Position numbers and translations under genes: made by a program | Part shown: positions 25,155 to 35,211 of the stretch, in pieces | Numbering within the stretch: the first letter of the stretch is position 1 | How the letters are laid out: every line of letters begins with the position of its first letter | IMG/VR virus record: IMGVR_UViG_3300034066_000200 | Span: 1 to 35,211 of that record | Direction: 5' to 3' (one strand) | From: a virus | DNA: 35,211 nt | The notes under the pieces: generated by a model | What the model was told of the DNA's origin: nothing | Databases searched by the model: none | Seen by the model: the letters and a program-made list of their open reading frames with translations, nothing else

Positions 25155-25416
25155 ACAATGGAGACTGCTAGCCGCGTGTCGAGGATTGCCTACAGCGATC
25201 TTCTTTCCTGAACACGGAAGCGAGCTTCCCGATCCATACGATGATGCGAGAAAGATATGCGCTAATTGCACGGTGAGGGAACAGTGTTTGGAGTTGTCAG
25301 AATCATTCGCTACCAGTGGTGATCGGAACGGAATGTTCGGTGGCCTCAGCCCTGCGGAGCGAAAGACTTTCAGGCGACACGCACGGTCATCACTGAAATT
25401 GCGTAAGTCATGCTGA
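25144..25416 (+). CDS. whiB: WhiB-like Fe-S transcription regulator
   Basis: A 90-residue WhiB family protein. The four cluster ligands are C12 (LLAACRG), C39 and C42 (ICANC) and C48 (EQC), the standard C-xn-C-x2-C-x5-C spacing. The GMFGGLSPAER motif (63-73) matches the G[IV]WGG-like turn of the family, and a basic tail follows. WhiB proteins occur in Actinobacteria and their phages, where they bind the sigma factor and change host transcription, as shown for mycobacteriophage TM4 WhiBTM4. ATG 25144 is set by the GGAGAAGG just upstream. The gene overlaps the methyltransferase start, so both are expressed together. Confidence 0.93.
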   Translation: MRNEQWRLLAACRGLPTAIFFPEHGSELPDPYDDARKICANCTVREQCLELSESFATSGDRNGMFGGLSPAERKTFRRHARSSLKLRKSC

Positions 25417-26693
25417 ACGTTCTGTCTCTCTTTTCAGGCGTAGGAGGATTTGACTACGGACTTGAAAATGCGGGGATGAAGACGGTGTTTCAATGCGAGA
25501 TAGATAAGCATTGTCAACAAATTCTGCACCGGCATTGGCCAGATGTCCCGAAGTGGGACGACATTCAAACACTCACAGGGAAGCACATTCTTGAAAACGC
25601 TGGCGTAGTCGATGTGGTTGCATGGGGATCTCCTTGTCAAGACCTCTCGCTCGCTGGCAAAAGAGCAGGCCTCGCTGGCGAAAGCAGTGGGTTGTTTCAC
25701 GAAGGAATACGGATAATTAAAGAGTTGAGAAAGGAAAGTAATGGACAATATCCAAGAGTCTCTATTTGGGAAAATGTCATGGGGAGTCTCTCGTCCAACG
25801 GTGGTTCTGACTTCGGGAGGGTCATCGATGAAATGGCCGAGGCAGGGGCATTGGTCATTGAATGGCGCAGTCTGGACTCAAGATTCTTCGGAGTCGCACA
25901 ACGGAGAAGAAGAGTGTTCGTCGTCGCTGTCTTTGATCCTGCAGTCGCCCGAGACTGTCCCGACCCGATATTACCTGTCACCCGTGGCGTGTACTGGCAT
26001 TCTAAGACGAGCGCGGCGAAGAGGGAAAGTACTTCCAGAAAGATTGGAAACGGCATTGAATCAAATAGCGCAATCATCGGATCAGAAATAGTCGGGACTC
26101 TAAGTGCGTCAGATGCCAAGCAAATTAGCAATCAATATGTAAATGAAAACAAGTGCGTAGTAGAACCGTTATTGGTTGACGGAACGAGGAATGACGATCT
26201 GAGATTGTACGAAGACGGCATAGTGCGAACCATGAGGGCGAGGATGGGAACGGGAGGAGGGAATACCCCTACGGTTCTCGTGCCAACACTTTCCTTTGAT
26301 ACGCAATTCGGAAGCAATGCCGGTGTATTTGAAGATCAATCTCCAACGTTGAAGTCCAGTCAACAATCCCCTTCCGTTCTTCAGGAACCACTGACATATG
26401 ACGGATACAACCAAACGCTTTCCGATGATGGGATACATCGATCGCTTTGGATAGGAAGGGATTCCTCAGACTTCATAGCGCAGGAGGAGAACAAATCTGA
26501 AGAAGTTTCTCCGCAGTTCGCAATTCGTAGATTGACGCCGCTTGAATGTGAGCGTCTCATGGGTTGGCCTGATAATTGGACGGAAGGACAGAGCGATTCG
26601 CACCGTTACAAGCAATGCGGAAATGGAGTTGCCTCTCCCGTGGCAGAGTGGATCGGAGAGCAAGTCCTAAAGATATGGAGCAAGCATGAATGA
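25410..26693 (+). CDS. DNA cytosine-C5 methyltransferase
   Basis: A 427-residue C5-methyltransferase transferring methyl from S-adenosylmethionine to cytosine in DNA. Motif I FSGVGGFDYGLE (8-19), motif IV GSPCQDLS with catalytic C76, motif VI WENV (E121), motif VIII QRRRRVF (164-170), then a long target-recognition stretch (about 180-370), motif IX RRLTPLECERLMGWPDNW (from 373) and motif X GNGVASP (403-409). All catalytic elements are intact. It overlaps WhiB by 7 bases and the next gene by 8. No restriction partner is near. With TET and glycosyltransferase genes in the same genome, it is the likely first step of DNA hypermodification. The target sequence is unknown. Confidence 0.95.
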   Translation: MLNVLSLFSGVGGFDYGLENAGMKTVFQCEIDKHCQQILHRHWPDVPKWDDIQTLTGKHILENAGVVDVVAWGSPCQDLSLAGKRAGLAGESSGLFHEGIRIIKELRKESNGQYPRVSIWENVMGSLSSNGGSDFGRVIDEMAEAGALVIEWRSLDSRFFGVAQRRRRVFVVAVFDPAVARDCPDPILPVTRGVYWHSKTSAAKRESTSRKIGNGIESNSAIIGSEIVGTLSASDAKQISNQYVNENKCVVEPLLVDGTRNDDLRLYEDGIVRTMRARMGTGGGNTPTVLVPTLSFDTQFGSNAGVFEDQSPTLKSSQQSPSVLQEPLTYDGYNQTLSDDGIHRSLWIGRDSSDFIAQEENKSEEVSPQFAIRRLTPLECERLMGWPDNWTEGQSDSHRYKQCGNGVASPVAEWIGEQVLKIWSKHE

Positions 26694-32226: not shown

Positions 32227-32964
32227 ATGGCACTTTTCACGCAAAATAGCGAACTTAAGCCACATGGAATCTTTAACTGGACAATTCCTGCTTGGTATGT
32301 TCGCCGCGCCGATGGTTCAATATTCAAAACCTGTCCGAACGCTGGAGCGTGTGCGAAAGTTTGTTACGCAAGAAATGGCACATACAGATTTAGCAACGTT
32401 GTTTCGGCACACACTCGGAATCTTGACCTAGTACTCGATGATCCTTCAACTTGGGAGGAAGAGGTCTGCCAAGAGCTTCGGAAGCGCAAATATCGCCCAA
32501 CAGGGAGTGTCAGGGAGTTACCAGACGGGATAAAACTGCACGACCTAGACCCGTGGCTAGTCGAATGGGTTCAGCACGGTGGTAAGGCCGTGAGGATTCA
32601 CGATGCAGGCGACTTCTTCGCAGACTGGTATTTAGAGGCATGGCTGAGAATTTGTCGGGAGAACCTAGACATTTTGTTTTACGCATACACCAAGGAGGTG
32701 TCGATGTTCCGAAGGGTCAAGCAATTTCCCGTTAACTTCAGATATCTCTTTTCAACTGGTGGGCTGGAAGATCATTTGATCGGAGAAGATCGTCACGCAG
32801 ACGTATTCCCGACTGAGGAGGCGATTATTGCGGCTGGTTACATCTCGCAAGACGCAAGCGACCTCTTGGCCGTACTTCTTCCTACGAACAAAATAGGCAT
32901 ACCTGCCAATAACATTCCTGCCTTCAACAAGAAACTCGCCGGTAGAAGATTCTCGGAGATTTAG
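32227..32964 (+). CDS. GP88-like phage protein with three-Cys motif
   Basis: A 245-residue protein resembling the actinophage 'Gene product 88' family. The N-terminal FTQNSELKPHGIFNWTIPAW is followed by FKTCPNAGACAKVCYARNGT, with C36, C42 and C46, then RFSNVVSAHTRNLDL. Later VRIHDAGDFFADWYLEAWLR, ILFYAYTKEVSMFRR, LFSTGGLEDHLIG and LPTNKIGIP are barrel-like strand/helix pairs. The Cys trio and the layout recall Fe-S or radical-SAM-like proteins, but the spacing C-x5-C-x3-C is not the radical-SAM C-x3-C-x2-C. Function is unknown. It lies upstream of ParB, TET and glycosyltransferase genes, which hints at a link to DNA modification. Confidence 0.75.
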   Translation: MALFTQNSELKPHGIFNWTIPAWYVRRADGSIFKTCPNAGACAKVCYARNGTYRFSNVVSAHTRNLDLVLDDPSTWEEEVCQELRKRKYRPTGSVRELPDGIKLHDLDPWLVEWVQHGGKAVRIHDAGDFFADWYLEAWLRICRENLDILFYAYTKEVSMFRRVKQFPVNFRYLFSTGGLEDHLIGEDRHADVFPTEEAIIAAGYISQDASDLLAVLLPTNKIGIPANNIPAFNKKLAGRRFSEI

Positions 32965-32992: not shown

Positions 32993-33622
32993 ATGAACAT
33001 TAGAGAAGAACTCAAACAACTGGCTCATCCGATCACAGAATTCAAGACGCATCCAAGAAACGTGCGTCAGGGAGATGTCGGAGCGATCACAGAATCACTT
33101 AATGCCCACGGGCAATACCGTGCCATTGTGGTTCAGAAGTCAACAGGCTATGTATTGGCAGGCAACCACACGCTCATGGCCGCAAGAGCACTCGGCTGGA
33201 AAGAAGTAGCCGCGACCTTCGTTGATTGCGATGACGAGCAAGCTCTTCGCATCTTGTTAGTGGATAATCGAGCGAATGATCTCGCTATGTACGATGACCG
33301 TGCACTTGCAGATGTACTGAAAGAACTCGCTTCAACGGAACTCGGCCTTGACGGTTCGTTATTCAACGGAGATGACCTTGACGACTTGATCTATCGGCTT
33401 GAAGGCACAACAGGAAACGCCACGGAAGGAAAGTCGCTCACTGAAGAATCAGACAAGTACGCAGAGAACGACACCAGAACGTTGATGCTCCCTTATCGAG
33501 TGTCCGAGTACACCGATCTCGTCACCAAGCTCTCGGCTATCCGCAGTTCATTCGGAGATGAAAGCAACTCTGCAGTCTTTAAGCGAATCGTTGATCAAGC
33601 GTATGAAGACCTACAATCTTGA
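32993..33622 (+). CDS. ParB/Srx-fold protein
   Basis: A 209-residue protein, ATG 32993 after AAGGAGAGAAG. The ParB N-terminal domain is clear at residues 13-100: ITEFKTHPRNVRQGDVGAIT, ESLNAHGQYRAIVVQ, YVLAGNHTLMAARALGWKEV, LRILLVDNRANDLAMYDD. A helical extension follows (DDRALADVLKELAST), and a C-terminal domain with LMLPYRVSEYTDLVTKLSAI. There is no partition ParA gene, so this is the phage ParB-like nuclease/NTPase type. In phages such proteins repeatedly neighbour DNA base-modification genes. It overlaps the TET gene by 20 bases, so joint expression is clear. It may guide or couple the modification enzymes to DNA. Confidence 0.88.
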   Translation: MNIREELKQLAHPITEFKTHPRNVRQGDVGAITESLNAHGQYRAIVVQKSTGYVLAGNHTLMAARALGWKEVAATFVDCDDEQALRILLVDNRANDLAMYDDRALADVLKELASTELGLDGSLFNGDDLDDLIYRLEGTTGNATEGKSLTEESDKYAENDTRTLMLPYRVSEYTDLVTKLSAIRSSFGDESNSAVFKRIVDQAYEDLQS

Positions 33623-34427
33623 GTTCAGGGAATGGGAGCCGATAGTTCGGCGTCAACAAGCACCTTTGCTGGAAGGCAACGATGAGGATCTGATCGGATA
33701 CGACAACGGAGTGCCGGTGCTGTATCAATCGACTAACTGGGAAGCAGATCAAGACCTCCTCACGGAACTAACCAGAACGTTGCGCTTCGGTATTAAATAC
33801 CAGAACCCAACTGCTGCGGCGAGACTCTCTGGAATCAAAGCCAGCAACGAATACTTCGGGACAGTCCCTCCACAACCAACACGGAGAAGGTACGCATGCC
33901 GAGAAGCGCGGCTATACACCTCCCTCCCACATCTCAAGGGAATAATTGATCAACTGACTAAGCAGATGTTTGAGAACTTTCAGTTGTACTTCCCAGACGA
34001 ATGTGCCCGGCATACGGAGTTAGTGGAGCAATCAATACTCCCTGACTGGTGGATCGCTGACACTCCTTTCACTTCGGGAATCATCAACGACAAGAGCGCA
34101 CTTCCCTACCACAAGGATTCAGGCAACCTTCAGGGAACTTGGTCAATGATGCTCTGCCTACGCAACGGCACGGCTGGTGGTGGCCTGCATATACCTGAAT
34201 ACGACATCAACCTCGGCATCCCTGATCGATCACTCACTATCTTTGAGGGACAACGTCTGTGGCACGGAGTCAACCCTCTCGTCTATCGCAAGAATGACCC
34301 TTACCGATTCACGCTGGTCTGGTATGTGAAAGAGCAGATCCGCAATTGTTCCTGCATCAAAGACGAGCCATTAAGAGCCGCAAAGAAGGCAACAGAAGTA
34401 CAGGAGGGTTATGTCAACAACGATTGA
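33603..34427 (+). CDS. TET/JBP-family Fe(II)/2-oxoglutarate dioxygenase (5-methylcytosine hydroxylase)
   Basis: A 274-residue enzyme predicted to oxidise 5-methylcytosine in DNA to 5-hydroxymethylcytosine using O2 and 2-oxoglutarate. The double-stranded beta-helix ligands are visible: iron ligands H170 and D172 in LPYHKDSGN and H221 in RLWHGVNPL, and the 2-oxoglutarate-binding R235 in PYRFTLVWY. GGGLHIPEY (192-200) and RSLTIFEG (209-216) are the conserved strands between them. The N-terminal 150 residues include a Cys/Arg-rich part (RRRYACREARLY) and PDWWIADTPFTSGIIN. Size fits phage TET proteins. ATG 33603 was chosen. An upstream ATG (33558) lies deep in ParB. The next gene overlaps by 17 bases and encodes the expected glycosyltransferase. 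Confidence 0.88.
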   Translation: MKTYNLEFREWEPIVRRQQAPLLEGNDEDLIGYDNGVPVLYQSTNWEADQDLLTELTRTLRFGIKYQNPTAAARLSGIKASNEYFGTVPPQPTRRRYACREARLYTSLPHLKGIIDQLTKQMFENFQLYFPDECARHTELVEQSILPDWWIADTPFTSGIINDKSALPYHKDSGNLQGTWSMMLCLRNGTAGGGLHIPEYDINLGIPDRSLTIFEGQRLWHGVNPLVYRKNDPYRFTLVWYVKEQIRNCSCIKDEPLRAAKKATEVQEGYVNND

Positions 34428-35211
34428 CAAAGGGCTCAAGGTATTCGTCTTTGGATACAACCGGTACGACTCAATGAGCACTTCGATCATGCTGGAGCAA
34501 GAGGGCATTGACCACTATGTGCTCTGCCACACTCAAGAAGCGTCTGATCTATTCGTAGAGAACGGCACTGCCAAGAAGGAACGCCTGATCGTCACTAACT
34601 GCCCAAGAGGACTGGCATATCAGCGCAACTTTGCACTTGAGATGATGAAAGAAGGGGAATGGGCACTGTTCCTAGTCGATGACCTCAAGAGTGTCAGCGA
34701 ACTGCGTAACTACGACAGGACGAAGGAGGCCAAGCTCCCGATCACTACTGACAATCAGAACCACTATGGCAAGAGGTTTGAGAACCCGATAACCATGACA
34801 CAGTTCATGAAGCGCACACATGAATTGATTGCAGAGTGCGAGAAGTATGGCGCCAATCTCGGAGGCTTCGCCGGCATCAACAATCCCTTATACAGAGCCA
34901 AGCATTGGTCATACAATGTGTTGGCTGATGGCCGCGCATGGGCAGTACGCAAGACACACCTGCGCTTTGATGAGAACGTTCAACTGATAGACGACCTGTG
35001 CTGGACAGCCTTGAACATCAAGCACTTCGGCCTAGTAGTCGTGAATCAGTGGGTACTGCCAGACTGTCGCAGGTATTCAGCAGGAGCGTTCGGTTCAATC
35101 GAGGAGCGCATGCCACAGAAGCTCGCAGAAGCCAAGTACCTAGTAGAGACATACCCAGAGTTGATCTCATTCAAGGAGAAGGCTGGCTGGCCATTCGGGG
35201 CACACGTTGTA
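34411..35211 (+). CDS. TET-associated glycosyltransferase-like protein (TAGT), runs off the right end
   Basis: The first 267 codons of a gene that finishes at 181 across the circle (279 residues in all). ATG 34411 follows AGGAGGG. It resembles a GT-A glycosyltransferase: KVFVFGYNRYDS nucleotide-sugar loop, PRGLAYQRNFALEMM, the acidic pair in LFLVDDLKS (D90-D91, DxD-like), LGGFAGINNPLYRAKHW, then LADGRAWAVRK, RFDENVQLIDDLCWTALNIK and the C-terminal FGSIEERMPQKLAEAKYLVE. Such proteins are fused or adjacent to TET dioxygenases in phages and are predicted to glycosylate 5-hydroxymethylcytosine. The overlap with TET and with HNH marks one transcription unit. The sugar donor cannot be told. Confidence 0.8.
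   Translation, partial: MSTTIDKGLKVFVFGYNRYDSMSTSIMLEQEGIDHYVLCHTQEASDLFVENGTAKKERLIVTNCPRGLAYQRNFALEMMKEGEWALFLVDDLKSVSELRNYDRTKEAKLPITTDNQNHYGKRFENPITMTQFMKRTHELIAECEKYGANLGGFAGINNPLYRAKHWSYNVLADGRAWAVRKTHLRFDENVQLIDDLCWTALNIKHFGLVVVNQWVLPDCRRYSAGAFGSIEERMPQKLAEAKYLVETYPELISFKEKAGWPFGAHVV
35070..35211. repeat. Right copy of terminal direct repeat (circular overlap)
   Basis: Matches positions 1-142 over its full length except C at 35196 for T at 127. It lies within the glycosyltransferase gene. It marks where the assembled sequence runs over its own start, so the unique sequence is 35,069 bp. Confidence 0.95.

Follow-up and report, generated by a model that had tools for sequence, protein, structure and literature searches.

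A ParB-TET-TAGT cassette in a complete phage genome is predicted to make glycosylated 5hmU

ParB-TET-TAGT cassettes are already known from the phages Altadena and Acadian, and the locus described here is a further member of this kind. In the Arthrobacter phages Altadena and Lilmac1015 and the Mycobacterium phage Acadian, the genes for ParB, TET, and the TAGT glycosyltransferase stand in the same order as in the window, the whole 35,211-nt stretch analysed here. Their TETs are 26-31% identical to the window TET over the full alignment, and TAGT was recognised in Altadena at 4.8e-18 and in Acadian at 1.3e-39. The three phages have no C5-methyltransferase, whereas the window has one; they also carry a PIG-L deacetylase, and none was found in the window. 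The window is distinguished by a divergent TAGT and by the addition of a GP88-family gene and the methyltransferase. The base J system of kinetoplastids (JBP1/2 and JGT) would share the proposed logic, in which T is converted to 5hmU by TET/JBP and is then the substrate of a glycosyltransferase; the window differs in being of phage origin, in showing no J-binding domain, and in having a glycosyltransferase of the TAGT group. Other phage TETs reportedly act in a 5mC pathway, as described by Burke et al. 2021 (PNAS). Such 5mC-TET systems, including the lineage of Methylophilales phage Melnitz, share the TET/JBP fold class with the window, but the Melnitz TET directly follows an HhaI-like C5-methyltransferase and belongs to a separate branch. 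Cassettes of the Tonitrus kind (ParB-TET-ADDT/aGPT-Pplase2-kinase) have TET and ParB of the same families as the window and likewise lie next to the terminase; in the window, ADDT (amino acid:DNA transferase) and the kinase are replaced by the glycosyltransferase (PMC11955845).

The window comes from an IMG/VR virus record and contains the terminase and portal genes of a tailed phage, together with a WhiB gene and a gene for a VanY-type peptidase. Both the WhiB gene and the bacteria infected by the nearest named relatives suggest that the host is an actinobacterium. The features relevant to this study are as follows.

1 to 142, no strand: left copy of a terminal overlap, 99.3% identical to 35070-35211; holds the 3' part of the TAGT gene
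25410 to 26693, plus strand: C5-cytosine DNA methyltransferase, intact (PF00145, E 6.6e-54; PCQ, ENV, QRRR, and GNGV motifs aligned)
32227 to 32964, plus strand: GP88-family protein, function unassigned (PF17338, E 3.5e-43; gene-order table)
32993 to 33622, plus strand: ParB-domain protein, constant partner of TET (PF02195, E 2.9e-5; PHROG 723, E 1.5e-38)
33603 to 34427, plus strand: TET/JBP-type Fe(II)/2-oxoglutarate dioxygenase, 274 aa (PF12851, structure model, Foldseek, invariant residues)
34411 to 35211, plus strand: TAGT-type GT-A glycosyltransferase (PF20691, PHROG 842, GT-A-type fold, orthologues, reading across the junction)
35070 to 35211, no strand: right copy of the terminal overlap, 99.3% identical to 1-142

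The record is classed as linear, yet the 142-bp overlap of its ends shows that the genome, of about 35.07 kb, is complete and maps as a circle. The window should therefore include every modification gene of this phage. The GP88-family gene recurs just upstream of ParB-TET in the closest relatives (loci L022, L023, L024, L028, L032, L033, and L036).

An earlier note, made from the sequence alone, had recognized a TET/JBP-type dioxygenase with H170, D172, H221, and R235 in the right order. These residues were found at those positions and are invariant among 58 relatives, as are N162 and N175. The gene has an alternative start at 33558. Against the Pfam Tet_JBP profile (PF12851), the window TET scored 24.3 bits (E 2.1e-5), short of the 34.9 bits required by the curated cut-off. 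Its family member Acadian gp2 also falls short, with 21.6 bits; therefore, the family is a divergent TET/JBP branch. The AlphaFold model of the window TET reached a pLDDT of 93.9, the structure models being built from alignments restricted to window and IMG/VR sequences. In a Foldseek search of the PDB with this model, ranks 1-26 were all TET-type structures (TET2, NgTET1, CMD1, and CcTet; E 1.5e-11 to 2e-8). The iron triad HxD...H and the 2OG-binding arginine are present in a double-stranded beta-helix. By profile, residues, and modelled fold, the predicted dioxygenase is confirmed as a TET/JBP protein; it stays inside this family, though under the Pfam cut-off. The difference between HxDxxN and HxDxxD was dropped as a substrate test, because the asparagine of HxDxxN is also present in TET2; HxDxxD was found in TETs both with and without methyltransferases. 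The residue eight positions after the 2OG arginine (K or L here, D in Melnitz, R in Cr30 and others, H in TET2 and NgTET1) was dropped as well, because it fails to split TETs with methyltransferases from those without.

The TAGT gene overlaps the TET gene by 17 nt. It encodes 267 aa inside the window, and following the reading frame over the terminal overlap extends this to 279 aa, with the 3' end of the gene at about nt 1-180. The prediction of an overlapping gene with the layout of a TAGT was borne out by this overlap, by PF20691 (E 5e-4, 20.5 bits; curated cut-off, 27.5), by PHROG 842 (the beta-glucosyl-HMC glucosyltransferase group; E 3.5e-8), and by a GT-A-type model, for which Foldseek matched TarP, SunS, and K4CP at E about 1e-4. 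The protein thus combines a GT-A fold and an acidic metal-binding DD motif with a position beside TET. D90, D91, D195, N158, and R18 are invariant across 21 sequences, and orthologues 51-80% identical to the window TAGT are present in nine related contigs. A tblastn search with the window TAGT found no named phage, and profiles and iteration were used thereafter. The iterated profile seeded by the window TAGT recruited the bona fide TAGT of Acadian (131.5 bits against PF20691) at E 1.6e-5. The profiles did not place the glycosyltransferase outside the TAGT group, though its Pfam score is below the cut-off.

The ParB gene, which overlaps the start of TET, had been missed by the earlier note, as had the overlap of the window ends; of the 70 distinct relatives, 69 have ParB as the gene immediately before TET. 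A tblastn search with the window TET placed it with actinophages (93 named records), the best being 30-36% identical. A close-relative search of IMG/VR with the single TET protein gave no match, and an alignment/profile search of the same database gave 314 TET relatives, the closest of which are 50-55% identical to the window TET. The hosts of the named phages span Mycobacterium, Arthrobacter, Gordonia, Microbacterium, and Rhodococcus, and some of these phages grow on A. globiformis and M. smegmatis. A genome scan for bacterial relatives gave two only, both in Actinobacteria. Downstream of ParB-TET lie a glycosyltransferase gene, or genes for ADDT and a kinase, or other sugar genes, often followed by terminase. 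The subclade of the window comprises 10 rows (support 100/96).

The earlier note had placed the methyltransferase first in a three-step pathway, in which it would make 5mC, TET would oxidise 5mC to 5hmC, and TAGT would glycosylate the 5hmC. The methyltransferase is intact, as the note had said, and the identities of the TET/JBP and TAGT proteins are most naturally interpreted as DNA base hydroxylation with subsequent glycosylation. The first step and the choice of cytosine were not supported. Were TET dependent on 5mC made by the phage, a C5-methyltransferase would be expected in its relatives. Among named phage records holding the TET family of the window, PF00145 was found in 0 of 14, and among the IMG/VR records in 5 of 50, these records being fragments except for L036 and L038, which appear complete. 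PF00145 was not found in L036, whose TET is 54% identical to that of the window, with the same synteny and a 127-bp exact end overlap, nor in L038 (93% end overlap). Among the 35 distinct loci that extend 3 kb to either side of TET, none had a methyltransferase within that distance; in the window, it sits 7 kb upstream of the cassette. The methyltransferases that do occur in the family (427, 400, 303, and 818 aa) differ in their target-recognition regions and in place. The 818-aa enzyme (L047:4293-6749) has repeated inserts in this region, and the window enzyme has the same inserts in a shorter version.

The Melnitz-like TETs served as a positive control. In this lineage, all 14 records contained PF00145, and it was adjacent to TET in 56 of the 60 loci with room upstream, which does fit C to 5mC to 5hmC; across the lineage of the window, no such linkage was found. 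The tree placed the window family and the Melnitz lineage in separate branches, with a program warning of long branches. PF00145 was absent too from five distant TET phages (P12024L, Cr30, DLP6, HTVC112P, and S-CBWM1). The cytosine pathway has in its favour that a single complete genome holds intact versions of the three enzymes, that a related methyltransferase in the close relative L020 forms a single run, MTase-ParB-TET-TAGT (with less than 3 kb of sequence downstream), and that L028 also has both the methyltransferase and the TAGT cassette. There is also a reported precedent in the other phage TETs of Burke et al. 2021, as cited in PMC12730594. Against the pathway, many genomes, including relatives with overlapping contig ends, retain this TET family but have no methyltransferase; the methyltransferases vary; and the window TET lies outside the methyltransferase-linked branch. 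We consider the cytosine pathway unlikely, and in the best explanation the window methyltransferase would be a separate, orphan enzyme. Cytosine carboxymethylation (CmoX) was considered as another cytosine route and set aside; the paper on it names neither TET nor glycosyltransferases (PMC12783734).

The genes that accompany TET in the relatives point to thymine. Within the subclade of the window, the glycosyltransferase position is occupied by ADDT, kinase, GNAT, and flavoenzyme genes of thymidine hypermodification. ADDT is carried by L033, L038, and L044; the order is ParB-TET-ADDT-GNAT-FAD enzyme-Ploopntkinase3 in L033 and ParB-TET-ADDT-Ploopntkinase3 in L044. Amino acids attached to 5hmdU are reportedly processed further by flavin enzymes and acetyltransferases (Lee et al. 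2022). The gene set of L033 presumably matches that set of amino acid transfer, flavin enzyme, and acetyltransferase. Across the family, ADDT is accompanied by a kinase in 13 of 13 cases; the substrates of both are assigned by homology, and none of this equates Ploopntkinase3 with the characterised 5hmdU kinase. In the known pathways, a 5hmdU DNA kinase phosphorylates 5hmdU in DNA, and substitution follows (PMC6449724; PMC7653180). The cassette of Tonitrus, which carries the TET family of the window, has been read as thymidine hypermodification in its ParB-TET-aGPT-Pplase2-kinase form (PMC11955845).

The kinase and TAGT tend not to share a locus, with 2 loci having both, 23 the kinase only, 19 TAGT only, and 17 neither (p = 3e-4, a value that ignores relatedness). 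In L042 and L045, the TETs are 93% and the ParBs 96% identical, with TAGT in one locus and the kinase in the other. Near-identical TETs followed by different finishing enzymes argue that one hydroxymethyl base feeds either branch. The simplest account is a single intermediate, 5hmU made from T, that is taken by exchangeable finishing modules.

Thymine is favoured over cytosine because relatives of this TET lack the cytosine methylase and often lie beside thymine-modifying enzymes. The analysis established the gene identities, folds, gene order, completeness, and distribution; the substrate, the product, the sugar, the purpose, and the part played by ParB are our inferences, as follows. The cassette probably makes glycosylated 5hmU in the phage DNA, with the methyltransferase acting separately. 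TET would oxidise the methyl group of thymine in duplex DNA after replication, giving 5hmU. Judging from its family and position, TAGT would then attach a sugar, taken from an activated donor, to the 5hmU hydroxyl. The product would be a bulky base similar to base J that may shield the phage DNA from host nucleases, and ParB, the constant partner, might guide the enzymes to DNA. Several observations count against thymine: no 5hmdU kinase or transferase gene was found next to the window TET or in the scanned downstream part, so that the kinase plus ADDT/aGPT-Pplase set of thymidine hypermodification cassettes is missing there; the window does have a C5-methyltransferase; and the L020 methyltransferase adjoins the cassette. 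For the group as a whole, we lean towards the view that actinophages make a base of the base J type by means of a ParB-linked, thymine-specific TET/JBP and interchangeable modules of either glycosyltransferase or kinase plus amino-acid transferase.

TET could also be a relaxed 5-methylpyrimidine dioxygenase that acts mainly on T and additionally on 5mC at methyltransferase sites, giving glycosylated 5hmU along with some 5hmC derivatives. Some TETs are known to use both 5mC and T as substrates; thymine oxidation has been reported for mammalian TET as well (Pfaffeneder et al. 2014, as cited in PMC7854593), and the pocket asparagine N175 may in principle pair with either base; glycosyltransferases, however, may discriminate between 5hmC and 5hmU. 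We regard such dual use as quite improbable. That TET acts on 5mC made by a host methyltransferase, or on another substrate (RNA or another base), in a regulatory or counter-defence role is very improbable, for although it fits the absence of a phage methyltransferase in relatives, and CcTet solved with 6mA DNA indicates that the fold accepts other bases, hosts in several genera would make dependence on host 5mC fragile, and the association with ADDT and kinase argues for a hydroxymethylated DNA base.

If the preferred reading, glycosylated 5hmU made from thymine, is true, it would represent a second entry point to thymine hypermodification in phages, a polymer-level route in which T is hydroxylated directly in DNA, as opposed to modification of the nucleotide pool. 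It would also extend to phages the base J pathway, hitherto reported from kinetoplastids, with a prokaryotic counterpart of JBP, and the tools that it would offer are TETs specific for thymine and glycosyltransferases for 5hmU. A methyltransferase somewhere in the genome would then be poor ground for assigning cytosine to every phage TET.

Some loci carry further genes after TET. In L036, a second 2OG-Fe(II) oxygenase (PF13640; L036:3910-4812) lies between TET and TAGT and perhaps oxidises the base or the sugar further. In L022 (4498-6730) and L023 (1752-4349), TET is followed by a nucleotidyltransferase, an APH-like kinase, and a further gene that is possibly GT-like, with a small HAD-like gene in addition in L023; these genes possibly represent a phage-encoded sugar-donor pathway. 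Acadian gp2 (L002:813-1691) and PHROG 6059 bear the label 'queuine tRNA-ribosyltransferase' in RefSeq and PHROGs. This name was rejected for the window protein, because Acadian gp2 matches Tet_JBP only in Pfam and the window model is a TET; the label looks like a misannotation across many cluster B mycobacteriophages.
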